A stretch of 24,414 nucleotides of DNA. Origin: a virus. The position numbers and the translations under genes are program-made. The stretch lies in the IMG/VR virus record IMGVR_UViG_3300023235_000127, positions 1 through 24,414 of that record; one strand, written 5' to 3'. Under the pieces are notes generated by a model that saw only the letters and a program-made list of their open reading frames with translations, did not search any database and had not been told where the DNA came from. Positions 1,227 through 22,754 of this stretch are shown piece after piece (position 1 is the first letter of the stretch; every line of letters begins with the position of its first letter).

Positions 1227-1227
1227 T

Positions 1228-1378
1228 TTATACCTCTAAAAACTTCCTATTATGGATCCAGCTAATTGTAGACTGGGTCACGCCAAATTGTTTTGCTATA
1301 TCTTTTTGATATATACCCTTATCTAGTATAGCGCTTGTTATTTAGTTTGTTTGTAATCCTATAAATACCGCTATTCAT
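1228..1378 (-). pseudogene. GIY-YIG homing endonuclease relic (both ends kept, centre deleted)
   Basis: On the minus strand an ATG at 1378, overlapping the TAG stop of the preceding gene, opens MNSGIYRITNKLNNKRY and stops at TAA 1319-1321. This is the start of a GIY-YIG domain; compare MDTGIYQIKNLVSGKVY in the intact enzyme at 3235-3876. In another frame, ending at TAA 1228-1230, follows a helix-turn-helix: QKDIAKQFGVTQSTISWI, then a worn version of the usual Gly-Lys-x-Trp ending. The catalytic Arg and Glu regions and the NUMOD3 repeats are absent. The two frames do not join, so this copy is broken. Its tail contains the AGAGG ribosome-binding site of the next gene. Confidence 0.85.
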
Positions 1379-1925
1379 CATCCACCCCGTCAAGATACAT
1401 TTCACAGACAGCATCGCGCCACCCCATATAGTCACCGTTTGCAATCCTAATGCCCGCGATCTGAGCTGAATCTAGGAACGGTATTAACGAATCAACGACA
1501 TTGTCGATACCAACGCACGTATATGACTTATCATACACTATACCCGCCCCTACTATGTTACGAATTTTGATTAGGAGGTTAAAATCACCAAAGGCTCTAA
1601 ACGTAGGAATATCATCTAGCGTTCCCTCTGTGGCAACTATATCGATATGAGCCTTGTTGAGGGAGGCGATTATATCACGACTGAACGACACTCCGGCTGA
1701 ACCGGACTGCTTGGCGTCACCCATAAGCTGTGCTAGTGATCTAGTTGTATCACCAGCCGCGTTCAAGATTTCGCTACGAATGATATTAAGGTCCGCGCCC
1801 TTTAGGGTGTATTCCTCGTTATCCTTCATGTCACCTAGATCAGCTCCGAGGGTATGCTCGATGTTCGCCAAAATACGAACAGCCATACCTTTTAGCCGCT
1901 TCTGTAAGACCTTTTCAAATTCCAT
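1371..1925 (-). CDS. Hypothetical tail-region protein (184 aa)
   Basis: I do not recognise this gene. The ATG at 1925 has a good ribosome-binding site (AGGAG about 6 bases upstream) and starts 9 bases after the stop of the preceding gene. The protein looks globular and soluble: a basic amphipathic N-terminal helix (EKVLQKRLKGMAVRILANIE), a mixed middle, and a C-terminal part with hydrophobic strands (FNLLIKIRNIVGAGIVY) ending in acidic DGVDDE. No signal peptide or membrane segment is visible. Its place between tail tube and tape measure suggests a tail-assembly or minor tail function; this is inference from position. The stop codon overlaps the ATG of the homing-endonuclease relic next to it. 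Confidence 0.7.
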   Translation of the reverse strand: MEFEKVLQKRLKGMAVRILANIEHTLGADLGDMKDNEEYTLKGADLNIIRSEILNAAGDTTRSLAQLMGDAKQSGSAGVSFSRDIIASLNKAHIDIVATEGTLDDIPTFRAFGDFNLLIKIRNIVGAGIVYDKSYTCVGIDNVVDSLIPFLDSAQIAGIRIANGDYMGWRDAVCEMYLDGVDDE

Positions 1926-1934
1926 AACTTTCTC

Positions 1935-3248
1935 CTAACTGGGCTTAGCCCTGCCTTTGTTGACCTTACTCAGATCCCCGGGACCAGAGTATTTAGTTTG
2001 CATACCTAGTGTGTTTCTAGACTTATCTCCACGAAGTGCTTGATCTTCCACACCATCCTCACCTCTCTTCGCTAGGCGCTTTTGTTCACCCGCGAGTAGC
2101 TTACGAACGTTTTCTGGGTTGGCAGACTGCACATCTTCGACCCTCTCTGATTTCTTGGTTTTATTATAGTAGAAGTAAACACCGTATGAACAACTCGGAT
2201 CATGGATATTGCCACGCTTATCGGGTCCTCTAGCTGCTGCCTCTTCCTTAACTCCACAAGTGCAATCCTCAGAGTATTCACCTATGACACTAAGGCTGAC
2301 TTCGTGTGCATCACCCGTCTTATTCATTGCGCTTACCTTCTGATCAAAGGCGGATTTCTTACGTCCCTGTTCGCGCTTCTGATGTTGCTCTTCCAACCAA
2401 CGGTCGAATAGCTTATCATCCTCCAACACTGCATCTGATGGCGACTCCATTGATTCATATGCAGAGTCATATACTTGTGACCAATAGACCAGTCGAAACT
2501 GATCTAGAGTCAGGTCATACATTTCTCTATCGAATAGAGTCTTTACGCCGCGATTCTCTTTAGACCCCATCCATTTACAACGCCAAAACCCAGAACGTGC
2601 GACGCGACGAATAGACGCCTCATCCGCTATAGACTCATCGTAGTAAGCCCTCATTAGGTTGGCTACTAATCGTGTATCTGTCTCTGCCTTTAGGATATCC
2701 ATACTGGACCAAATCTGGTCCATATCCGGAAACGACAATGTAGCGCAGCGAAGAAAGTAACTTCCCCTCTCGCACTCCGCTCTGTATTCCGCACTAGGTA
2801 GCTCAATGAACTGAGTGTAATCAGCTTCAAGCTTCATGATAGTCTTAGTGATCGATACGATCATTTTATCGAGCTTAACCAGCTTGCCAGTTGGCTCTCG
2901 ACGCTTTGACCTACCCCTACTATCCAACATCTTGGAGTTCATCTCGTATTCACGAGCCTTAACCTGAAGAGCCAACTCACTTCGCAATGACTTCATATCA
3001 TCGTCGTAAGCTGCCTTCCATAAGCCATTTTCAATAGCTTGTTTCTTTAACCCATCCCTCTTGAGGAGTCCGTCTGTCTCATCTACCATACTCTGATAGA
3101 TGTAATTACCCATGTTCTTCTCTTCTAGAGTTAGCGGACGAATTACATACGTGACCTTCTCATCCTTAGCGTTTGGGACCTTTATGATCCTGTGACCCCA
3201 GATGATAGCATCTAGTAGCTCGATTACATCCTCGTTAGATTGTGACAT
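1935..3248 (-). CDS. Candidate tail-assembly protein (437 aa)
   Basis: The ATG at 3248 (MSQSNEDVIELLDAI) is preferred to a TTG 33 bases upstream because the longer form would overlap the homing endonuclease further and has no visible ribosome-binding site. The gene starts 14 bases inside the end of that endonuclease. The N-terminal 60 residues (IIWGHRIIKVP, then YVIRPLTLEEKN) have a strand followed by 'RPLTLxE', similar in character to the start of tail-assembly chaperones of large phages. Residues 85-145 are a basic helical region, and residues 185-300 are helical with several Trp/Tyr. A Cys-x-Cys pair (329, 331) with His349 and Cys353 could bind a metal. The Lys-rich C-terminus includes RGDKSRNTLGMQTKYS. 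The position directly downstream of the tail tube supports a tail-assembly role, but this is not proven by sequence. Confidence 0.6.
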   Translation of the reverse strand: MSQSNEDVIELLDAIIWGHRIIKVPNAKDEKVTYVIRPLTLEEKNMGNYIYQSMVDETDGLLKRDGLKKQAIENGLWKAAYDDDMKSLRSELALQVKAREYEMNSKMLDSRGRSKRREPTGKLVKLDKMIVSITKTIMKLEADYTQFIELPSAEYRAECERGSYFLRCATLSFPDMDQIWSSMDILKAETDTRLVANLMRAYYDESIADEASIRRVARSGFWRCKWMGSKENRGVKTLFDREMYDLTLDQFRLVYWSQVYDSAYESMESPSDAVLEDDKLFDRWLEEQHQKREQGRKKSAFDQKVSAMNKTGDAHEVSLSVIGEYSEDCTCGVKEEAAARGPDKRGNIHDPSCSYGVYFYYNKTKKSERVEDVQSANPENVRKLLAGEQKRLAKRGEDGVEDQALRGDKSRNTLGMQTKYSGPGDLSKVNKGRAKPS

Positions 3249-3876
3249 GATGCCAAGTTGTGCCCTGCGCAATATGTTCAATTAATCGTAAAGATGTATT
3301 CATTTGATTGGCTATATCAATCTGTTTGAATCCGTTACATAACATCTTTTTGATACTTTTGACCTGTTGTATAGTCAGCTTGGCTCGACCATTACTCTCG
3401 CCCTTATTGGCCCTTGAAAGATTCTCCTTATGAGTATTAGAAAATTTCTTTACCTTGCCAGATTGAGACATGCGATTTCGCGTCGCTAATGAGAACTTCT
3501 TACCTAAATGAGCCTTACTTATCTTAGCTTTTGTCTCTTCGCTATGTTTAAATCCTAATCGACTGCCAGCAACACGGACCACATTATAGCCCAACTTATG
3601 AAATCGTTGATCGTCACAACTAGCAAATAATAGAGTATTCAAGTAGTATTGTTCGCGCTCAATACAAACCGAAGGCTCACATTTTTCAAGAATCTCAAAT
3701 AGAAATACATCAGCACTATATTTACTCCAAGCACTTTGAAGATGTCTATTGCAATGCTTCTTAGCTACTAATCTTCCTCGATGATGACCCCATCTAGTCT
3801 TAAAAGATTCTGTGGTGCTACCTATATAAACCTTTCCACTAACCAAATTTTTAATTTGGTATATACCAGTATCCAT
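3235..3876 (-). CDS. Intact GIY-YIG homing endonuclease with NUMOD3 repeats and C-terminal HTH
   Basis: A 213-residue free-standing homing endonuclease, a selfish nuclease that spreads by cutting relatives lacking it. The GIY motif is at residues 4-6 and YIG at 17-19. The catalytic Arg lies in KTRWGHHR (R28) and the catalytic Glu in IEREQYYL (E73). Two NUMOD3-type DNA-binding repeats follow (GFKHSEETKAKISKAHLGKK at about 108-127; a second at about 133-155), then a C-terminal helix-turn-helix (residues 165-213, KQIDIANQM ending in GTTWHHV). All key residues are present, so it looks active. The ATG follows AGAGGG at 5-base spacing. It sits directly after the hairpin behind the tail tube gene, and its end overlaps the next tail gene. 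Six degraded relatives occupy other junctions in this window. Confidence 0.94.
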   Translation of the reverse strand: MDTGIYQIKNLVSGKVYIGSTTESFKTRWGHHRGRLVAKKHCNRHLQSAWSKYSADVFLFEILEKCEPSVCIEREQYYLNTLLFASCDDQRFHKLGYNVVRVAGSRLGFKHSEETKAKISKAHLGKKFSLATRNRMSQSGKVKKFSNTHKENLSRANKGESNGRAKLTIQQVKSIKKMLCNGFKQIDIANQMNTSLRLIEHIAQGTTWHHVTI

Positions 3877-3947: not shown

Positions 3948-5324
3948 TTATGAATCATCGAACAGGTTCGGGAATGGGGCTGAACCCACGTTAAACCTAC
4001 CACCACGATCAAACACTAGCACGCGGTGGTTCGGTTGGAACCTGTCATGGCTGATGCTTAGCGCGTTAAACGAACTGAAGTTGTAGGTAACAGTCATATT
4101 GTCACCACCAGCTTCACCACCACCCACGTCAACAGTAGTCAGAACGTTGGAGTCTCCAGCGTCTACCTGCATACCATCGCAAGTGCGAATGATGATTGTG
4201 TTCAGCGCGGTCGAGTCTGGACCACAGTCTACTTCGGAAGTCGCATCGATCAGGTCACCCTGCGAAGTGATTACCTCGATTGCAGTCGTAACCTCCACGG
4301 GGAAAGTCACATACTTGGTGAACGGACGCTTCGAGCCTAGCTCAAAGATATCGTCACGACCAATGTCTGCTGTAATTGTGATCGACTGAAGGTGTTCAAT
4401 AATACCACTCGTGTTGGCGTCAGCTACTAGCTGAGTCAACGGGTTTCCAGCAGCGTCTACAGCGCCGGAAGACCCAGCGGAGATGTAACCCTTCTGCTCT
4501 AATTGCAAGGTGCTAACACCAGAACCAAGAGCCACGGTAATACCTGGGATGTCAGACGGAAGAATTGAACGACGGATGTCTACTTCTTCACGACGTTGCA
4601 CGCCAGAACCTACAACGAGAACGCCGAAGCCTCCATCGCCACCTGCTAGTTCCTGCTTGCCACCGAGTGGTTCGTGACCGAACACGCCAGAAGGAACACC
4701 GACCGGTGTCTCATTCGTTGGTGGGGTAAGGGCTGGGGGATAAACCGAAATGGTTTGGCCTGGGATGCCCGCGTCAAAGTTTGCCCACTTCTTGTCGTTT
4801 CCAACCATTGAAACCGACTCGGTTACCGCGCCATCCACAGGGAAGGTGTAGGTAACAGTGGATAGATACATGCCCGATGCTAGGACAGTCGACAGCGGAG
4901 CTGCGGTGTCTGCACGGAACTTAGTATCCGAGTAAATGCTAAGGATAATGTCGCTGCGATAAAACGCAGTCTTTCCAACCAAGTCCGTGAACAACGGATC
5001 GGTCAGCATGAACCACAACGGCTTAGTGCCATCGATAATCTTCTCTAGGGTGACCTCTACATCTGGCTGACGCTCAGAGTATTCGTAAAGCTCGACTTGA
5101 CCTAGTTGGAATACGGTCTCGCGGTTAAAGTTGGTCGACATTGCTGCCGACTGCATACCACGGGGGACTTCCCAAAGGCCAGCGACTTCGTCTACGGAGT
5201 CACTTGAGAAAAGTCCCGAGGCATATTCGCGGGAGTTAAGTGGTGCAACGCTGTTGGTCGGAGCCGCAGCATTATCCTTGATCGCCACTTGTTCTAGGGC
5301 GTAAAAAGTTCTGCGATTAGTCAT
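3948..5324 (-). CDS. Major tail tube protein with internally duplicated domain
   Basis: A 458-residue protein that I interpret as the tail tube subunit. Two segments resemble each other: residues 58-100 (MQSAAMSTNFNRETVFQLG, later PDVEVT) and residues 312-355 (LQSITITADIGRDDIFELG, later FPVEVT). Each is followed, about 65-70 residues on, by a matching strand pair (STVTYTFPVDGAVTESVS at about 155-172 and MTVTYNFSSFNALSIS at about 410-425). Between them is a Gly/Pro-rich insert (190-245). Tail tube folds of this type normally form hexameric rings; a tandem duplication would give a trimer with pseudo-six-fold symmetry, as known for phage T5. The ATG at 5324 follows a strong AGGAGG, with its own promoter element and leader upstream and a terminator behind, as expected for an abundant structural protein. 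A tail sheath is less likely given the duplication and length. Confidence 0.75.
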   Translation of the reverse strand: MTNRRTFYALEQVAIKDNAAAPTNSVAPLNSREYASGLFSSDSVDEVAGLWEVPRGMQSAAMSTNFNRETVFQLGQVELYEYSERQPDVEVTLEKIIDGTKPLWFMLTDPLFTDLVGKTAFYRSDIILSIYSDTKFRADTAAPLSTVLASGMYLSTVTYTFPVDGAVTESVSMVGNDKKWANFDAGIPGQTISVYPPALTPPTNETPVGVPSGVFGHEPLGGKQELAGGDGGFGVLVVGSGVQRREEVDIRRSILPSDIPGITVALGSGVSTLQLEQKGYISAGSSGAVDAAGNPLTQLVADANTSGIIEHLQSITITADIGRDDIFELGSKRPFTKYVTFPVEVTTAIEVITSQGDLIDATSEVDCGPDSTALNTIIIRTCDGMQVDAGDSNVLTTVDVGGGEAGGDNMTVTYNFSSFNALSISHDRFQPNHRVLVFDRGGRFNVGSAPFPNLFDDS

Positions 5325-5382
5325 ATGATAACCTCCTATTTGCGTATCTGATCAGATGCATCTGTGAGCAGTATGCTCATCC
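5325..5382 (-). promoter_or_regulatory. Structured 5' leader of the tail tube gene
   Basis: The transcript leader of about 55 bases contains three short dyads: GAGCATACTGCTC (5366-5378), the perfect palindrome CAGATGCATCTG (5353-5364) and TCTGATCAGA (5347-5356), followed by AGGAGG just ahead of the ATG. Such leaders can stabilise mRNA of highly expressed virion genes; that role is inferred. Confidence 0.4.
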
Positions 5383-5396
5383 AGATTATACACTAA
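5383..5396 (-). promoter_or_regulatory. Late-promoter-like element upstream of the tail tube gene
   Basis: The minus strand reads TTAGTGTATAATC, a member of the window-wide TTAGTGTATNAT family and containing a perfect TATAAT. No -35 box is evident 16-18 bases upstream. It lies in the gap between the preceding structural gene and the tail tube start. Confidence 0.6.
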
Positions 5397-5421
5397 ACCC
5401 CTATTTCCGCTACTGTCTTAT

Positions 5422-6480
5422 TCAGCTCTCCATATTTCTTCCATCTATACCCTCTAAAGATACATCAAAACCAAATGGTGTCGTAGGCATAATTGGATAA
5501 GTTTCTACTATCATCCGGACCACAGCCCTCTCAAACACGTCCTGCTGGGTCGTAGAGTCACTAAAGAAGCTATCCAGGTCTACTACCTCGGTTTCCTCAA
5601 TAAAGCCCCTAAAGGCGATTGGGTTAACCCCAGAGAACGACGGTCCCGGCAGCGGTTCATTCTGAGCTAAACTAATATATGGCACGTATTCGGGACTTAA
5701 CTCATTCTTGAGTCCAGACAGTGGCAGCGGGGCGATGTTGTAGTTAATGATCGGAAAGCTCTTCCTTTGCTGGAAGGATACTAGGTCAATCAGGTTATCC
5801 CGGGTGCTTTCGTCAAGAGCCCAAATCTCACAGGTTAGTTCATCTCGGGCGACTAGGGATCTGTCACCTAGTTGATAATTGCTGAACGTCCTACCCATAT
5901 TCTCCACGAAGATAATAGGCAGGGGTGATATTCTAGTGCTACCCGATGGGTAGACTAACTGCCCCGCCGAGAATGGATTAGTCTTATATTGCTGCTCCAA
6001 AACACCCTGCCGAAGCTGGTCATTGAACTGACGTAGATCTAGGATCTGAACAGTCTTATAGGTGTAATCAGCATGGACTATTGTTTCTAGAGATAATGGA
6101 CCGTCAAAGATCACACGACCATTGATGTGGTCAATGCTGTGAGGATAGACAGGGTCGTCTTCTAGGCGGAATGAACCATCAATATAGACGCCACTTGCTC
6201 TAAATGCAGTAGGCCACAGATTGAGAACCACTGACGGATTCAGCGCTGGTGGCGGATCGTAAGCCCAGTTTTGAAAAAGAGACTGCCATACCTGACCAGC
6301 GCTATAACCACCTTCAGCCAACACCTCTTCTCCGGTGTCGGGAACTAAGACACTTAGGTCTTGCCCGTCGTAAAATTGCTGACCTGATGTAATAGTGTCA
6401 TAGCAGCCATCTCTCATCAGCTCGGCGTCAAGAAACTCGCGAAACGAGTTTTTCATAAGGTATCTCAACTTGTGGAACAC
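5422..6480 (-). CDS. Virion structural protein of the head-tail or tail region (352 aa)
   Basis: I do not recognise a named family. The protein is rich in beta-strands and aromatic residues, with segments such as HINGRVIFDGPLSLETIVHA and DYTYKTVQI, and has no membrane segment. This type of protein is common between neck and tube genes in large environmental phages, so a tail-terminator, neck or connector role is plausible from position. The start is uncertain. A GTG at 6480 has an excellent ribosome-binding site (GGAGG, 7 bases upstream), which lies inside the end of the neighbouring endonuclease relic, and forms TAAGTG with the relic's stop. An ATG at 6456 (MKNSFREF) has only a weak GAG. I prefer the GTG. 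The downstream gap carries the tail tube promoter element. Confidence 0.72.
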   Translation of the reverse strand: MFHKLRYLMKNSFREFLDAELMRDGCYDTITSGQQFYDGQDLSVLVPDTGEEVLAEGGYSAGQVWQSLFQNWAYDPPPALNPSVVLNLWPTAFRASGVYIDGSFRLEDDPVYPHSIDHINGRVIFDGPLSLETIVHADYTYKTVQILDLRQFNDQLRQGVLEQQYKTNPFSAGQLVYPSGSTRISPLPIIFVENMGRTFSNYQLGDRSLVARDELTCEIWALDESTRDNLIDLVSFQQRKSFPIINYNIAPLPLSGLKNELSPEYVPYISLAQNEPLPGPSFSGVNPIAFRGFIEETEVVDLDSFFSDSTTQQDVFERAVVRMIVETYPIMPTTPFGFDVSLEGIDGRNMES

Positions 6481-6668
6481 TTAAACACCTCCGATATGTG
6501 ACCAGCGGCGACCGGTTTTGATATTTGAAATAGTGATTGGTTTGACATTGAACTGTTGAGCGATGACGACACCCTCCACCTAGCCTGGAATCCACCCTTG
6601 CCAGCAGCACTACCAATGTAGCGCTTCCCATTCACAAGGTTTCGTATTTGATATACTCCGGTCTTCAT
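6481..6668 (-). pseudogene. GIY-YIG homing endonuclease relic, frameshifted
   Basis: The ATG at 6668 follows the TAA of the upstream gene by one base and opens MKTGVYQIRNLVNGKRYIGS, continuing to FQARWR. This is an intact start of a GIY-YIG domain including the YIG motif and the catalytic Arg region. The reading then shifts: in another frame the C-terminal helix-turn-helix follows (VIAQQFNVKPITISNI, then TGRRWSHIGGV) and stops at TAA 6481-6483. Everything between, including the catalytic Glu and the NUMOD3 repeats, is gone. The original frame runs on as nonsense into the next gene. The last codons (CGGAGGTG) provide the GGAGG ribosome-binding site of the downstream gene. Confidence 0.88.
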
Positions 6669-8221: not shown

Positions 8222-8773
8222 CTAACGAATGTGAATGCGAACCCTAGCCCAACCTGCGGTTGGAATTGTGGCTGGCTGTGGATCCACGATAGCTTGATTA
8301 CCCGCAACCCTCATGGAGGAAACACCAATAGAGTTAGCTGAAACCCTAATAGTGGGATCGTTTAATGCGCTATCAAATGTTCCAATTCGTCTATTGCTAA
8401 ATGTTGTGTTCGATGTGATTAGACCGGATGGCGCTAAGTAGACAGGAGCACCAGGACGAATCGTAGAGGCATCTACGTGTGGATGGATAGCATTTGTTAC
8501 GACAATACCCAGAGTTATGTATGGGGCACGACTAAAAGCCGGGTATGCCCTCCTGGTGCTCCACGGGGCAATTGCACGAAACAAATCAACTTCCTCAAAA
8601 TCATACTGTTGCAATCCTAATGGAATTGTATCCCGCGTGGGGTTTGCCTCATATACAGCATATTGAATACCACTAAGCGTAGCTAAAGACAGAATACCTC
8701 CACGCTCAGTTTCAAACGGCACAACGTAGTCTGCGCGTTGGTCTGATACCTGCTGATCGACACCGAGGGCCAT
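8222..8773 (-). CDS. Decoration-protein paralogue in the neck cluster (183 aa)
   Basis: The C-terminal half matches, by eye, the decoration protein at 11278-11751: PGAPVYLAPSG versus PGQPAFLAPNG, then RRIGTF versus QRVGQF, and the ending GWARVRIHI versus GYARVRIEL. The N-terminal halves share a PIG/PLG turn. It therefore probably has the same beta fold and decorates the virion, perhaps the capsid or the neck. It lies among connector genes rather than beside the capsid gene, which suggests duplication and specialisation. The ATG at 8773 overlaps the stop of a 17-codon endonuclease miniature (TAATG), whose codons supply GGAGG 8 bases upstream. Confidence 0.7.
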   Translation of the reverse strand: MALGVDQQVSDQRADYVVPFETERGGILSLATLSGIQYAVYEANPTRDTIPLGLQQYDFEEVDLFRAIAPWSTRRAYPAFSRAPYITLGIVVTNAIHPHVDASTIRPGAPVYLAPSGLITSNTTFSNRRIGTFDSALNDPTIRVSANSIGVSSMRVAGNQAIVDPQPATIPTAGWARVRIHIR

Positions 8774-8826
8774 TATGTATACCTCCAGGTTTTACCAGTC
8801 TTAATACGCGAAACTCCGTTTTTCAT
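8773..8826 (-). pseudogene. 17-codon in-frame miniature of a homing endonuclease
   Basis: Minus-strand ORF MKNGVSRIKTGKTWRYT. The first five residues correspond to the family start (Met-x-x-Gly-Val/Ile-Tyr) and the rest to the last turn of the C-terminal helix-turn-helix (SDIKLGKSW, SNIKTGRRW in other copies). About 190 codons have been lost without breaking the frame. Its ATG overlaps the upstream TGA and its TAA overlaps the downstream ATG (TAATG). The Trp-Arg codons TGG AGG form the ribosome-binding site of the next gene. Confidence 0.72.
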
Positions 8827-9158
8827 CAGCAATTCACCTTCATAAACTTGCGCAGCTTGCGACGACGAGACTGCTTCGACCTGTTGGTCGTGAATCCAAA
8901 TGCCTTACATAGAGAACACATTTGCTCCCAATCAAGGTAGCGGATTTCGTGATACGTAAAAGACAACTTCGGAAAGCTCTTTCCGGGGAATAGCTGTTCT
9001 AGCACATCCTGTGTGTATGATGCTTCAATTAGGCTACTGCGAGCATCTTTGAATACTTCCCACGGCACAACTACAGGAGCGTGTCTTTCTAGATAGCCAT
9101 AGATTCGCCTCCCATTGATCATGGTCGACCCATATGGATGACGGAAGAATACGAGCAC
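8826..9158 (-). CDS. Small basic neck-cluster protein (110 aa)
   Basis: I do not recognise a family. The GTG start at 9158 is supported by GGAGG 7-8 bases upstream and a TAGTG overlap with the preceding stop; an ATG 36 bases further in (MINGRRIYGY) has no ribosome-binding site. The protein has an aromatic N-terminus, a central helix (VFKDARSSLIEASYTQDVL), a Cys-x-x-Cys pair (CSLCKAFGF) and a strongly basic end (SKQSRRRKLRKFM). Basic charge and position between adaptor and decoration paralogue suggest a head-completion or DNA-contacting neck component, by context only. Confidence 0.65.
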   Translation of the reverse strand: MLVFFRHPYGSTMINGRRIYGYLERHAPVVVPWEVFKDARSSLIEASYTQDVLEQLFPGKSFPKLSFTYHEIRYLDWEQMCSLCKAFGFTTNRSKQSRRRKLRKFMKVNC

Positions 9159-11277: not shown

Positions 11278-11751
11278 TTATTGAAGTTCGATGCGAACTC
11301 GGGCATAGCCGTCAGAATCGACAGCAGTCATAAACTGACCAACGCGCTGATCGTCACTAGCGTCAACCGCAAGATTGGCGTTGCCAATGTTACCGTTAGG
11401 TGCTAGGAAAGCAGGCTGACCCGGAGTAATTGCAACGCCACCGTTCGCGATTACTAGATCTGTATCTAGTTCTCCACGACGTAGTAGTGCAACAACAGTG
11501 CCGATGTCGTCAGTGTCGTATTGGGTGCGCTCCATCTCCTTGGCGTAGTTAAACGCTTCACGAGTATTAAGCAGGACACCGATTGGGTAAATGCCAGAGG
11601 CACCTACTTCAGCGGCGGTTCCACCCGCGATATCCACAAGTCCCGCGACTCCAGATGCGACTACTAGTGTGCCCGGCTCTCCAGCGCGGTTCAACACATA
11701 CTGCATCGTGGTCTCGTGACGGTGGCTTAGACCTCCACTCTTAAGTGCCAT
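11278..11751 (-). CDS. Capsid decoration (head-stabilising) protein
   Basis: A 157-residue, beta-rich protein located between the protease-scaffold and the capsid gene, the standard place for lambda gpD-like decoration genes. Visible segments are GEPGTLVVASGVAGLV, a YPIGVLLNTREAF turn, then PGQPAFLAPNG and a final strand GYARVRIEL. Such proteins trimerise on the expanded shell and lock it. A second, diverged copy of the same layout is at 8222-8773. The ATG at 11751 starts only 2 bases after the upstream stop, with GGAGG inside the end of the protease gene, so the two are translationally linked. Confidence 0.75.
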   Translation of the reverse strand: MALKSGGLSHRHETTMQYVLNRAGEPGTLVVASGVAGLVDIAGGTAAEVGASGIYPIGVLLNTREAFNYAKEMERTQYDTDDIGTVVALLRRGELDTDLVIANGGVAITPGQPAFLAPNGNIGNANLAVDASDDQRVGQFMTAVDSDGYARVRIELQ

Positions 11752-11753
11752 AA

Positions 11754-13502
11754 TTAGACCTCCTTCTTGGTGTTCTTAGCAGGGATGAGGTTAGCAACTA
11801 GACGACCCATTGGGGATTCGCCGTTACCGCCTTCCTGCTCAGCGTTTGCGCCAGCTAGGTTAGGCCCGTTGACCTCTTCGAACATGGCGTTCAAGTCCGC
11901 AGAAGCGCCAAGCTTCGAACGGGGGACGCGGGGCATGTCCATGGGGGCACGACCGAGTCCGGGACGGAGAACCGCGCCATGATCATCAATCGGGGTCTCA
12001 CGATCCATCGGCTCCAGAAGACCAGCTTCGGCATCGGGTGCCTTCTTGTCCTTCTTATCCTTCTTCATATTCTTCTTGAGATCGATCATCTTGTTAGCGA
12101 AGATCTTCTTCTCATCTAGCCACTCAGCATAAGCTTCGTCAGAAGCCTTGCTTAGGCCAACAGTTACAAACTGCTTGACTTCCGCTTCTTCCATCTCTAG
12201 GATGGTAGCAAAGAGATACTCGATCTCATGCTTACGCAAATCCTGCTTGATGGTTGTTAGCTCTGCCTTGAGGGCAGTATTCTCTTCAATAAGCTTGGTG
12301 TCAGCTTCTAGATCCTTGTTTTCAACAAGAGCGGACGCTACTGCCTTGCGGCTATCAGCAATCCAAGCAATCTTCGCAGCAAATACTGCGTCGCCAGCGC
12401 CTACACCCTTAACTTCCAAAGCCTTGTCGATCTTAGCGATCTCAGCAGGGATGTCATTGGTTGCGCCGGAGTATGCTCGGTCGATTGCCGATCGAAGCGT
12501 ATCTAGAGCAGCCTGTGCCGTAGCAAGGTTGCTTTCTAGTTGTGCGTTATCTGCCTTCGTCTGTTGTAGATCAGAAACGATGCGCTCGCTGGCTTCGATA
12601 CGCTTTTGCGCGTCGAGTGCAAGTTGAACACCCTTCTGGATCTCTTCAGCGCTGGCAGCAGCACGATTCAGATCGTTCATATTAACCTCCATTGGTTCCT
12701 TTTTACTAAACAACGTTGTTTGTGTGACTTCTTGATCCTGAGTCAGATGGTCACTACTCGCCTCCACTACCTCCGCCTCTGCGAGCGGATCGAAAGCAAA
12801 GTGGTTCAGAATAAATGAGCGTTTGTTAGCTGGACGATCTACGAAGGCTACGCCTCCAAAGGTTACTCCAGATAGTGCTCTACCGATACGCATACCATTA
12901 TATCTACCAGTTCCCCCGCATACGCGAAGGTGACCGTCCAGGAAGGCGGTCTCTGGCTTACGTGCAATGCTGTCGAATAACTCTCCACCTTGGGTGTATA
13001 GCCCGTAGTCGTAGTCATCAAACCAGCACTCCATTGACACGAAAAGATCGCCCTTTTCAATACGTTGGACGATCTGTTCCGCAGTGGCTTTAATATGAGG
13101 AAGGTGGTGCCAAACTACACCTTGGATGACCAGTTCAATTTCCTGATCTTCGATTTCCTCGACTGCCAAGGTCTTACCTTGGAGATCACGAGCTTCTACG
13201 GCATACATAGCTCCAAGGATTTGCTCATCCTTGTGCTGCCAATTCATTGGCTTAAGTATGGGGCTCGAAATTGCGCGCTTAAGTTCTTCGCGGGTAAAGG
13301 CATCGTCGTTATCGTTGATGCCCTCGCTCACCAATACTGCTTCTACATGTAGCAAGTCAGGTTGGGAGTTTAGCTTATCCACACCACTGATTTCGAACGA
13401 AGACAGCGCTGCGCTTGCTTTAAGGTGATCCACCTTAGAGGGTCGCGCAAACTTAATCTCCCTTACGGCTACAGCTCGTAGTTTTGGTGTGTTGTTTACC
13501 AT
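11754..13502 (-). CDS. Prohead protease fused to scaffold domain
   Basis: A 582-residue fusion. Residues 45-200 form a serine protease of the prohead type: LLHVEAVLVSEGINDNDDAF, then MNWQH with the likely catalytic His90, and DLFVSMECWFDDYDY with the likely nucleophile Ser156. Residues about 270-460 are a long Ala/Glu/Lys-rich coiled coil (IQKGVQLALDAQKRIEASE and similar) acting as scaffold. The remainder is Lys-rich and Pro/Gly-rich. The protease would remove scaffold during head maturation. The ATG at 13502 is preferred to a GTG at 13517, because the promoter-like box TTAGTGTATAAAG lies directly against it. Placing TATAAA at -12 to -7 puts +1 on the A of the ATG, so the mRNA is probably leaderless; no ribosome-binding site is visible. 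Confidence 0.86.
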   Translation of the reverse strand: MVNNTPKLRAVAVREIKFARPSKVDHLKASAALSSFEISGVDKLNSQPDLLHVEAVLVSEGINDNDDAFTREELKRAISSPILKPMNWQHKDEQILGAMYAVEARDLQGKTLAVEEIEDQEIELVIQGVVWHHLPHIKATAEQIVQRIEKGDLFVSMECWFDDYDYGLYTQGGELFDSIARKPETAFLDGHLRVCGGTGRYNGMRIGRALSGVTFGGVAFVDRPANKRSFILNHFAFDPLAEAEVVEASSDHLTQDQEVTQTTLFSKKEPMEVNMNDLNRAAASAEEIQKGVQLALDAQKRIEASERIVSDLQQTKADNAQLESNLATAQAALDTLRSAIDRAYSGATNDIPAEIAKIDKALEVKGVGAGDAVFAAKIAWIADSRKAVASALVENKDLEADTKLIEENTALKAELTTIKQDLRKHEIEYLFATILEMEEAEVKQFVTVGLSKASDEAYAEWLDEKKIFANKMIDLKKNMKKDKKDKKAPDAEAGLLEPMDRETPIDDHGAVLRPGLGRAPMDMPRVPRSKLGASADLNAMFEEVNGPNLAGANAEQEGGNGESPMGRLVANLIPAKNTKKEV

Positions 13503-13507
13503 GCCTA

Positions 13508-13520
13508 CTTTATACACTAA
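13508..13520 (-). promoter_or_regulatory. Late-promoter-like element abutting the protease start codon
   Basis: The minus strand reads TTAGTGTATAAAG, 5 bases before the protease ATG. The spacing predicts transcription starting at the ATG itself. A small dyad, CTGTC-ATCTA-GACAG, lies just upstream at about 13529-13543. Confidence 0.6.
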
Positions 13521-17052: not shown

Positions 17053-19082
17053 TAGTATGCTACACCCCCTTTCCATCTCATGGGGCGATAACCATCACCC
17101 GGTCCACCCTTACGATTCTTGAGAATCTCCTGAGGTGATCCACCGTATGCCTTGCCCCAGCCCTTTTCGTGACCATGACCCTTGATCATACGTGCCGCGT
17201 GACCAGCCAAAAGCAGGGCACTATAACGGTCTCGGCGTCTCACATCCAGACCATCGGGTTGGTCAACCATCTTCTGTAGTCCAAAACCCTCTGTTCCCTT
17301 TTCTGTCACTGTCATAACGATCGCACACAGCTCATTGGTAAGCTCGTCAATCTCACGGTAGTTACCAAGAGAGGCAATTTCGCCATCATCGTCCTCTGTG
17401 CCATAAAGCAAGTCATTGATATGCTCAGCACATAAGACATGTTCGGCATCTTCGTAATCAAACTCCGGAGAGTCTATCAGACGCTTAGCGTGCTTATTCA
17501 TCACGATGTCGTCGTCAAGACGCCCCGGGAATAGGATGCTCTTCATAATGATGTCGCGCTTAAGTGCGTGGTTAGCTGGCGCGGTCCATGTATGAAAATT
17601 GACCATCTCTAGAATGCGACGTGCATTCGGGATGGCTTTGTATTCGTCGCTTGGTTCAATCTCGATGATGGGCTGCTCACCTTCTCGGAGATACTTGGCT
17701 GAGGCCAGCATTTCCTGAATCGTGTCACCACCACCACCTTTGTCACAGGCGATGTATGCCATGTTGGGAAAACGTGACAATACGTCTTTAATCTTGCCAA
17801 TACTGACTTCCCACTTCGCCTTGTTCCAAGACTCGGTGTAGACTACCTGTGCTGTAGTTCCGACTAGCTTAAGGACAACTAGCCCGAAATTGTCGTTCCA
17901 ACGAGCAGGGTCGAGTCCCATAACATACTGAAACCCGGGCTCACCATACATTTCGTAATGAACCTCGTCAGGGTTACCTTTACCAAAAGAAGCTTCGTCA
18001 ATGATTGATCTAGGAAAGAATCCATTTGTGTCCTTGCTGAATTTGCATTCGTATTCGTGTCCAAAAATAGTGGGGTCCATGATAGCCTTGTGGTTTGCCA
18101 CAATGTCATCATCGAGGAAGCCTTCAGGCATCCCATAGTAGGGTAGCGCGAACACTGCGTATTCATGCCACACCTTACCCCAACGCTCTAGCATCTCATC
18201 TGAGACGCTAATAGTTCCATCGCGGCTCTGACGACGTAAACCCTCTTTGATAGCCTGAGGGTCACCCTTAGAGCGCGCAAAGATGTTGTATGCCTCGAAG
18301 CGTCGATAGAAATGGTTGAATTGATAGGTCGCCGTTCCTGACAGCACCAATTGGTTGCCGTTAGCTCGGCTCGATTTTTCGACCAAGTCAACAACGTCCT
18401 GATTCGCGCCTAACTCCTTCAATCTCCGAATAAACGAAGCTGTGACTACCGCCTCTGCCGGGTCCGCCTTAACACTCAAGAACGGACCAATAGCTGTGTC
18501 AAAGACAGAGTCATCAATAGACGCCACCTCATCACATACTAGCGTAGTTGCACGCATACCACGCACCTTGCTACCGTCGCCGACTGGGATGCCAGTGATC
18601 TCGGTGTTGCTGCCCACCTTGATGTAAACCTTGTCCGTAGCGAACTTCACACCGAAGTCGTTACCAGGATGGAACTTTCGAATCGTTTCCTGGAGGATAG
18701 GGGATGCCTTCACCAGGGTGTCGATGTATTGGAAGGTGAACTTCGCCTGACGGAAACCACCAGAAACGATTACTACCTTCGTTCCAGGCACCAGAAGACA
18801 TTTCAACAAGCAGAACACTGCGAGCATGAACGTCTTACCCGCTCCACGGCAGGCGAGAACCATAGGAAATTTTTTATGCCATATCGCGTGGAGCATAACG
18901 CTCTGGAATGGCAATAGACGTAACGGATCTCCAAACTGATTTCTCATGGTGAGTTCTACAAACTTAGTGAGCGAAATATCACTCACTCTGTTTACTATGT
19001 AAGGATACTGCTTCTTATCATGGATATAAAGCGACTCCTCAATAGCCTTCGTGTCTGTAACTACTTCTTGTATGACTGTCAT
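17052..19082 (-). CDS. terL: Terminase large subunit (DNA-packaging ATPase/nuclease)
   Basis: A 676-residue motor protein that pumps DNA into the head and cuts it. The ATPase domain has a Walker A (CRGAGKT, residues 78-84), a Walker B (LVCDEV with D184/E185) and a coupling motif (LSGTAT, about 248-252). The nuclease domain has MGLDPARWND (D391), YIACDKGGGGDT (D447) and a third acidic site probably near HINDLLYG (about 555-561). The ATG at 19082 overlaps the stop of a decayed endonuclease (ATGA) and has GGAG upstream within that relic. The C-terminus is Gly-rich. It lies in the usual place directly upstream of the portal gene, with a probable small subunit five genes further upstream. Confidence 0.95.
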   Translation of the reverse strand: MTVIQEVVTDTKAIEESLYIHDKKQYPYIVNRVSDISLTKFVELTMRNQFGDPLRLLPFQSVMLHAIWHKKFPMVLACRGAGKTFMLAVFCLLKCLLVPGTKVVIVSGGFRQAKFTFQYIDTLVKASPILQETIRKFHPGNDFGVKFATDKVYIKVGSNTEITGIPVGDGSKVRGMRATTLVCDEVASIDDSVFDTAIGPFLSVKADPAEAVVTASFIRRLKELGANQDVVDLVEKSSRANGNQLVLSGTATYQFNHFYRRFEAYNIFARSKGDPQAIKEGLRRQSRDGTISVSDEMLERWGKVWHEYAVFALPYYGMPEGFLDDDIVANHKAIMDPTIFGHEYECKFSKDTNGFFPRSIIDEASFGKGNPDEVHYEMYGEPGFQYVMGLDPARWNDNFGLVVLKLVGTTAQVVYTESWNKAKWEVSIGKIKDVLSRFPNMAYIACDKGGGGDTIQEMLASAKYLREGEQPIIEIEPSDEYKAIPNARRILEMVNFHTWTAPANHALKRDIIMKSILFPGRLDDDIVMNKHAKRLIDSPEFDYEDAEHVLCAEHINDLLYGTEDDDGEIASLGNYREIDELTNELCAIVMTVTEKGTEGFGLQKMVDQPDGLDVRRRDRYSALLLAGHAARMIKGHGHEKGWGKAYGGSPQEILKNRKGGPGDGYRPMRWKGGVAY

Positions 19083-19343
19083 TTAATATAACTCCAACTA
19101 CGACCGCGTTTAATATCTGTAACAACATAGCGAGAAACTCCAAATCGAGATGCTATGTCAGCCTGTGGAATACTAAGTGCTAGAAGCCTCCGAAAACTTC
19201 TTACCCATGTGACTCGCACTTATTTTTGCCTTCGTTTCATCAGTATGCCGATATCCACGCGAATCAACCACATAAGGGAAGACATTCATCAGAACTTATC
19301 CCAAGATGCTTGAAGATATTGATTATGACCAACACCACAAGCC
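19080..19343 (-). pseudogene. GIY-YIG homing endonuclease pseudogene, central and C-terminal parts
   Basis: Several frames on the minus strand carry homologous pieces in order. GVGHNQYLQASWDKF matches the intact enzyme's CNRHLQSAWSKY and ends in TGA. GYRHTDETKAKISASHMGKK matches its NUMOD3 repeat and ends in TAG. A helix-turn-helix (QADIASRFGVSRYVVTDI, then RGRSWSYIK) ends in TGA overlapping the terminase ATG. The GIY start is missing. At least two frame breaks show it is dead. This copy keeps the most internal sequence of the six relics, so it may be the youngest. Confidence 0.9.
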
Positions 19344-19673
19344 TTAGATAATACGGTCATCGTCTTCCTCCTCGTCTTCCTCTAGGTCTTCTTCTCCAGT
19401 TCCGGACTGATACCAAGAGGAGCTAAGAACGCTAGCCCCGAAGAAGGGATGAAACTCCATTACCTCCTCCATACGCCTTGCGTCACGGGTCTTCTGGACG
19501 TGATAGAACGCTTGTCTCGCGTGCCTCAAGGCTGTTTCGTTGTCACCGGCATCTAGAACTAACTGGTCATACTGGCGTTTAATCTGAGCGCGGATCTCCA
19601 ACTCCTTGTTGGTCAGGTCTAGGATCTTATCTCGAAAGCTCTTTAGCTGAGCATTTGATAGCGGGTTACTCAT
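19344..19673 (-). CDS. Acidic-tailed small protein upstream of the large terminase (109 aa)
   Basis: The ATG at 19673 (MSNPLSNAQLKSF) overlaps the upstream TGA (ATGA). Residues 5-70 form long charged helices with coiled-coil character (DKILDLTNKELEIRAQIKRQ). The middle contains EVMEFHPFFGASV, and the C-terminus is a highly acidic run (EEDLEEDEEEDDD). I do not recognise a family. Its place just ahead of the large terminase and its helical make-up leave it as an alternative candidate for the small terminase subunit, although it lacks a clear DNA-binding HTH. Confidence 0.65.
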   Translation of the reverse strand: MSNPLSNAQLKSFRDKILDLTNKELEIRAQIKRQYDQLVLDAGDNETALRHARQAFYHVQKTRDARRMEEVMEFHPFFGASVLSSSWYQSGTGEEDLEEDEEEDDDRII

Positions 19674-21931: not shown

Positions 21932-22599
21932 TAGATTGGCTCCTTGCTGATGAAGATGTCATCTAGACGAACCTTTGGGTAGTTCTGGCGAACGATGGGA
22001 TGGATCAACTTAACAGGGCAACTCCCTGACTTTATTTCACGCATGATTTCCTTCTCGGTGAACTCAAAACGCTGCTTCGTGTTGTCATTAAAGGTTACAA
22101 TCACTACAGTCTTCCTATCCCTGGAGCCCTCATAGGGGTAAACATCCACATGTTCGACATCGGGCCAGCCTTTGCGCCAGATATACAGCAAGTCTTCGGA
22201 TGAAAGCCCATGAGTGGCGAAGAACACCTCCTCAATCTCTTCTGGGTCACTTGAGCGTTGCAGTTCTTGACCTGTTACAATTCGTTGTGTTACAAGGCTT
22301 CCCATCGTGGCAACTTCTTCGTAAATATCCACTGGTGGGAATGCCTTTTTGATTGTATCCTTGAATTGTTCTGCACTTAGGGTTGTATCCTTACATGCTT
22401 GAGTGAAGGTTACTCCGCCAAGGCGGAACTCAGTCAATACATCTAGAATATTAGAGGGGATGATGAACTCCTCGGGTTTGGACGGCATCAACTGGGGATG
22501 TCGAGGAAAGCGCTCGTCGCACTCTCTGCATACGAATCGATTGTCGTCCTGAATTTCGTGAGCTACCCAGCCTCTGTGTTGACAATCACTCATTGCCAT
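21931..22599 (-). CDS. Zinc-ribbon N-terminal hypothetical protein (222 aa)
   Basis: The N-terminus carries CQHRGWVAHE and FVCRECDERFPRHP, a Cys-x-His...Cys-x-x-Cys zinc-ribbon arrangement. Residues 45-90 are HTH-like (TFTQACKDTTLSAEQFKDTI). A beta-rich C-terminal domain follows (KTVVIVTFNDNTKQRFEFTE). I do not recognise a family; a DNA-binding accessory of packaging or late transcription is possible. Two ATGs are available: 22599, with AGGA at 5-base spacing, and 22593, which overlaps the stop of the upstream endonuclease relic as ATGA. I prefer 22599. Confidence 0.68.
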   Translation of the reverse strand: MAMSDCQHRGWVAHEIQDDNRFVCRECDERFPRHPQLMPSKPEEFIIPSNILDVLTEFRLGGVTFTQACKDTTLSAEQFKDTIKKAFPPVDIYEEVATMGSLVTQRIVTGQELQRSSDPEEIEEVFFATHGLSSEDLLYIWRKGWPDVEHVDVYPYEGSRDRKTVVIVTFNDNTKQRFEFTEKEIMREIKSGSCPVKLIHPIVRQNYPKVRLDDIFISKEPI

Positions 22600-22754
22600 G
22601 ATTTTCCTAATTTAATATCACTGACTGTTTGTTGTGCCACGCCATAACGAGTAGCAATAGACGTTTGTTTGGAGATACTGCTACGATGAGAAATAGAAAT
22701 TCTACCCCCATACCGTGGATGATCTATGGCAATTTGATATACTCCGTTATTCAT
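22590..22754 (-). pseudogene. 54-codon in-frame homing endonuclease miniature
   Basis: Minus-strand ORF starting MNNGVYQIAIDHPRYGG, i.e. the GIY-YIG start joined to a short segment that may derive from a linker, then directly to a helix-turn-helix (QTSIATRYGVAQQTVSDI, then KLGKSWQ). The YIG motif, catalytic Arg and Glu are absent, yet the frame is intact. Its ATG overlaps the end of the sigma-like gene and its TGA overlaps the second ATG of the next gene. It supplies AGGA as that gene's ribosome-binding site. It could still encode a DNA-binding peptide. Confidence 0.75.

Follow-up and report, generated by a model that had tools for sequence, protein, structure and literature searches.

We have found that the 17-codon ORF (MKNGVSRIKTGKTWRYT*) located at positions 8773-8826 on the minus strand of the window, which is how we refer to the complete IMG/VR record of 24,414 bp analysed here (part of the genome of a phage with relatives of up to ~176 kb), is, judged by its sequence, what an internal deletion has left of a GIY-YIG/HTH homing endonuclease gene and not a working member of this family. 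In the reading that we favour, to which we give a probability of about two in three, the endonuclease would have entered at the start of the downstream gene, the enzyme would later have been deleted and the retained tail would now be the ribosome site of that gene. Comparison with related phages provided the family identity, an intact relative at the same site, the anatomy of the edges, the ongoing internal deletions and the swap of start-codon position.

The upstream gene (8826-9158, minus strand, 110 aa) ends with AAT TGC TGA, and the final A of this stop is shared with the ATG of the mini-ORF (8826-8824), forming a TGATG at 8824-8828. The minus strand then continues with the codons AAA AAC GGA GTT TCG CGT, followed by ATT AAG ACT GGT AAA ACC TGG AGG TAT ACA and by TAATG GCC. 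In this TAATG (8771-8775), the last A of the mini-ORF TAA (8775-8773) is the first base of the ATG of the downstream gene (8222-8773, minus strand, 183 aa), which likely encodes a capsid-region structural protein. Such overlaps between stop and start codons, present here at both ends, are a feature of translationally coupled gene pairs. The Trp-Arg codons of the mini-ORF hold the predicted Shine-Dalgarno (SD) sequence of gene 8222-8773 (GGAGG, 8782-8786, minus strand; -10.6 kcal/mol, spacing 8 nt), and the mini-ORF itself has a weak predicted SD, GAAGGTG (8835-8841, minus strand; -4.4 kcal/mol), inside the last codons of the upstream gene. The first-pass annotation had described both overlaps correctly to the base, and both the sequence and an intact copy from another phage that is arranged alike, TAATG included, support its proposal that ribosomes bind at the TGG AGG codons to translate the next gene. 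As the mini-ORF is identical in a separately assembled contig (L001 of G001, UViG_3300022851_000170), it is not a one-off assembly slip.

The mini-ORF keeps the last ~14 residues of the family, that is, the end of the HTH and the conserved (V/I)S-x-IK-x-G-x-x-W tail, and its start, up to GV, continues in frame with the VS of this tail. The ORF had been said to join the family start to the last turn of its HTH; the join is as described, and "last turn" is slightly loose for the stretch retained. A profile built from 11 intact family members gave the last 12 residues of the mini-ORF 23.96 bits. The highest value for any of the other 25,681 12-mers of the window was 12.57 bits, and a set of 39,462 random short ORFs contained none that scored as high as the tail of the fossil. 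Furthermore, G006 (UViG_3300001199_000002) contains an intact 172-codon endonuclease gene at the very same junction (L012 12659-13177), which reads MKTGVYQIQN...TTVSAIKRHTTWRNC*, starts within TGATG, ends with TGGAGGAATTGCTAATG and shows GIY-YIG (4.4e-6), NUMOD3 and HTH_7 domains according to Pfam. The family profile matches the structures of the I-TevI catalytic domain (1mk0/1ln0) at about 1e-21, and this GIY-YIG domain, present in the G006 copy, is absent from the 17-codon remnant. The 19 nt at the 5' start of the fossil are identical to G006 at 18 positions, the top value among all the loci compared, and its 3' tail has the closest match (31/44) in a copy from another phage, not in G006. 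The G006 gene may therefore be a same-site member of the family and not the direct parent of the fossil; if the parent was as large as the G006 gene, a single internal deletion of about 465 nt would suffice to generate the mini-ORF. The same-site intact relative, with equal overlaps, and the profile score strongly support the earlier view of this ORF as an endonuclease fossil, a view that had been tied to the existence of longer relatives at the site. A length of only 17 codons could also be reached by a chance ORF unrelated to endonucleases, but the probability of this is practically negligible, as it is ruled out by the profile score, the same-site relative and the 5' match. It is also very improbable that selection maintains the mini-ORF for the peptide it encodes, be it a functional micropeptide or a DNA/RNA-binding leader: the short frame is intact and its edges are good, but it is found in one lineage only and retains no catalytic domain and little of the HTH.

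The focal junction was compared across five relatives that share the gene order. The remnant is present in the window and in G001, and the intact endonuclease in G006. G002 and G003 contain only GAGGTATACAT-ATG, with about 11 nt in common with the tail in the window (in full, TGCTGAGGTATACATATG, and no further endonuclease sequence), and G004 has an 8-nt gap without any ORF. G005 is empty, its downstream gene directly overlapping the upstream stop with its own start (TGATG), and the distant L031 has a direct overlap of 8 nt. Occupied and empty alleles of one site are found at this junction and also at junctions 1371/522 and 6670/5422. A tree of 14 concatenated proteins places G005 as sister to the window lineage, although, because it includes five taxa and homing is horizontal, it does not separate an endonuclease that was ancestral and then lost from one repeatedly gained. 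These alleles do not support the idea that erosion has reached its end point in the mini-ORF and left no more than is needed, as G002 and G003 keep only the apparent ribosome site, G005 overlaps cleanly and the minimal form is restricted to one lineage; a permissive pattern scan of viral contigs did not detect other minimal fossils of this kind beyond the G001 copy. The sequence shared by G002 and G003 with the window, which comes without other endonuclease sequence, would also be expected if the ancestral junction was already GAGGTATACAT-ATG, as in G003, and the endonuclease frame ran into it and supplied no SD. We consider this quite unlikely, because the TGGAG tail of the family is found at unrelated junctions and in unrelated phages, G005 and L031 overlap directly without such a sequence, and a further-eroded remnant explains the G003 sequence equally well. 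Given the presence of GAGGTATACAT in G002 and G003, part of the tail could nevertheless be native sequence into which the endonuclease ran.

At all four comparable junctions (4/4), the endonuclease ATG lies at the offset from the upstream stop that the ATG of the displaced gene has in one or more empty sister phages: -1 (G005), +1 (G004 and G005), -8 (G003 to G005) and -8 (G004 and G005). This agreement indicates that the invader starts at the former start of the displaced gene, which restarts at the end of the invader. According to this, in the empty G005 an AAGGAG within the last codons of the upstream gene is the SD of the downstream gene (-8.7 kcal/mol); in G006 the SD at this native position, now that of the endonuclease, has decayed (-0.9) and the downstream SD comes from the endonuclease tail (-9.3), the corresponding values in the window being -4.4 and -10.6 kcal/mol. 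The G006 tail GGAGGAATTGCTAATG resembles a duplicate of the native GGAGAATTGCTGATG, and the terminase start MTV occurs twice; these two sites give clear hints of a duplication of the edge, and at junction 1371/522 no duplication was found beyond the ATG. Our working hypothesis is that insertion may duplicate the edge. Sixty distinct endonuclease relatives from viral contigs were analysed by reading the SD at a fixed place from the endonuclease stop, blind to the downstream start: 16 of the 24 tails that abut a downstream gene had a match of SD strength, vs 5 of the 36 non-abutting ones (p=3.7e-5), an enrichment that by itself is not specific to endonucleases and in part follows a general rule, as abutting genes tend to carry the SD of their neighbour in the tail. 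The TGGAG that follows the conserved Trp was present in 13/25 abutting tails vs 1/28 others, but the downstream start was chosen in part by SD strength, so the blind count is to be preferred and the choice of the codon after Trp is only suggestive, and no proof, of selection. In the cultured phages vB_Pae_U9, Segz_1, and BcepSauron, the deposited annotation has overlapping downstream starts and SD-like tails.

We propose that a free-standing GIY-YIG/NUMOD3/HTH homing endonuclease gene would have entered precisely on the start codon of what is now gene 8222-8773. The native start position, overlapping the stop, would thereby have passed to the endonuclease ATG, together with the native SD at the 3' end of the upstream gene, and the final codons of the endonuclease (TGG AGG ... 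TAATG) would have supplied the displaced gene with a new SD and a new stop-overlapping start. A later in-frame internal deletion (of the size given above for a G006-like parent) would have lost the enzyme and spared both translation edges, leaving the tail as the ribosome-binding site of gene 8222-8773. We infer this use of the tail SD, and with it the reason for the retention of the 3' end, from the sequence of the tail, its position and the intact relative.

The mini-ORF had been interpreted earlier as a translational bridge kept by selection, in which ribosomes restart at TGATG, read the 17 codons through the SD, stop and restart at TAATG, and the need of an in-frame relay would explain its form. 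Overlaps of the TGATG/ATGA type can indeed couple translation by termination-reinitiation (PMC6728339), and here both overlaps are perfectly kept, the deletion is in frame and the downstream SD is partly paired in the predicted local fold (probability of being unpaired, 0.5). However, no strong hairpin hiding this SD, which would demand coupling, was seen in that fold, and the SD is strong by itself, in contrast to the weak one of the mini-ORF, which speaks against a strict dependence of gene 8222-8773 on upstream translation. Moreover, sister phages link the same genes without any mini-ORF, either through a short gap (G003 and G004) or directly (G005), only two of the four two-ended eroded copies in the window stay in frame, and a second minimal fossil was absent from the viral contigs scanned. 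As the overlaps are inherited from the intact gene, no present selection is needed to account for them. Overall, a selected bridge seems to us unlikely, though worth keeping in mind; it is plausible that the mini-ORF is translated at a low level through reinitiation at TGATG, as an incidental and not a required event.

The remnant is not the only member of its family in the window, as the 24 kb include one intact gene and five eroded copies, the focal one among them, all on the minus strand. The intact gene (3235-3876) encodes a GIY-YIG/NUMOD3/HTH homing endonuclease. At 1227-1381 only the start MMNSGIYRITNKLNNKRY and the HTH tail are left of a recently deleted copy, which is intact in G009 (UViG_3300005931_001007; 218 residues, up to the contig end) and in G001, which aligns with the window over 17,306 bp with a single mismatch and contains a 223-aa endonuclease at this junction (1371/522); the window has an internal deletion of ~518 bp, with 2-nt microhomology and a frame shift. 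The comparison of these near-identical strains (window 1227-1381 vs L008 17252-17923 and G009 4872-5525) offers a snapshot of erosion. At junction 6670/5422, the copy at 6465-6668 has a tail that encodes GGAGG for gene 5422-6480; its intact 266-aa counterpart in G003 ends with ...GGGAGGTGTTTAG-GTG, and the window keeps both ends, with ...CGGAGGTGTTTAA-GTG. The debris at the terminase junction (19083-19360) has lost the endonuclease start and retains catalytic and NUMOD3 sequence, and the new terminase start (MTVIQE, at 19082) follows a TTGGAG from the endonuclease tail. The start of the terminase large subunit has been displaced by ~260 bp in this way. The stranded old start (MTVLSK, 19341-19360) overlaps the stop of the upstream gene, like the terminase start of G005, and is now the beginning of a 23-codon frame. 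In the fifth copy (22590-22754), start and tail lie within one 54-codon frame. The 3' tail beside the downstream start is thus kept in 5/5 eroded copies, a count biased by the fact that the copies were recognised by their tails, and the start in 4/5; two of the four copies with both ends are in frame and two out of frame. Outside the window, a 51-codon HTH-like ORF of G004 (L002 9154-9309, junction 5422/3948) that ends with DVIAKQFNISRRHCFRVFSV also looks like an endonuclease tail remnant.

We suggest tentatively, and with somewhat less than even odds, a more general model in which one branch of these endonucleases acts as a "start-codon cassette". Having a start codon at either end, it would enter at the start of a coupled gene, take over the native initiation site and give back an SD in its conserved C-terminal codons (G-K-T-W-R/S, with TGG AGN). 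The dependence of the neighbour would then allow the cassette to be hollowed, with removal possible only by an exact ATG-to-ATG loss, and fossils of the size of a ribosome site would be left in structural operons.

With regard to the source phage, searches with the downstream gene and with the capsid gene found no cultured relatives, the terminase gave distant matches only, and species genomes contained no host or prophage copies of the downstream gene. The genes flanking the mini-ORF had been called virion genes, which is reasonable, as both lie after the major capsid gene and the protein of 8222-8773 is weakly similar, in a profile comparison (E 6e-6, probability 85%), to that of 11278-11751, encoded beside the capsid gene; the assignment is nevertheless indirect and the upstream gene has no family hit. 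The similarity lies in the PGxPxYLAPxGxI region and suggests two related capsid-region proteins. After the major capsid gene, G004 has a 509-aa ORF (L002 3151-4680) that contains FGSWxxALxxAGL-like repeat units and is unusual in its C-terminal half; it has no counterpart at that place in the window. Finally, several structural genes of the window and its relatives are preceded by copies of the motif TTTAGTGTAT(A/T)A (junctions 13592/11754, 17052/14257, and 5422/3948), for example the CTTAGTGTATAAAG in front of gene 11754-13517; this motif is a candidate phage promoter element.

This work addresses how a selfish gene can sit harmlessly between essential co-translated genes and why its remains linger. 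One junction is now known in intact, hollowed, near-erased and empty states, together with a deletion caught between near-identical strains. Invaders may become hard to remove completely once the neighbour uses the retained ribosome site. Many of the tiny ORFs annotated as "hypothetical" in phage operons may likewise be what remains of invaders, retained for their ribosome sites, and the present case yields a simple search rule for them.

Promoterless free-standing endonucleases located between conserved genes have been reviewed for T4 (PMC2988022), and the family described here resembles the T4 seg genes and I-TevI in its GIY-YIG domain, its location between conserved genes and its presence or absence among relatives. 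The start of T4 mobE also overlaps the upstream stop (UAAUGA; PMC2988022), as the endonuclease start does here. Unlike the seg genes, however, this start is that of the displaced gene, the last codons carry the SD and the overlapping start of that gene, and only an inactive remnant of 17 codons is left of the focal copy. In the open-access papers searched, we found no tail-encoded ribosome sites of phage homing endonucleases and no ORF-sized fossils. Together with the start-for-start replacement, the tail-encoded site is a translational counterpart of the promoters of downstream genes embedded in T4 seg and mob genes, which favour the retention of these genes (PMC2988022): in both cases the invader bears an expression signal of its neighbour, but here the signal serves ribosome binding and lies in the last codons, which would account for erosion halting once a short stub of the 3' end is left. 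As in the homing life cycle of invasion, decay and loss (PMC13405050), intact alleles coexist here with decayed and empty ones, with the difference that decay proceeds here by internal deletion, constrained by the translation signals of the neighbours, at several junctions of one phage genome. Finally, the mini-ORF shares its stop/start overlaps, at both ends, with gene pairs coupled by termination-reinitiation (PMC6728339), from which it differs in that its coupling is putative and the downstream start has a strong SD of its own.
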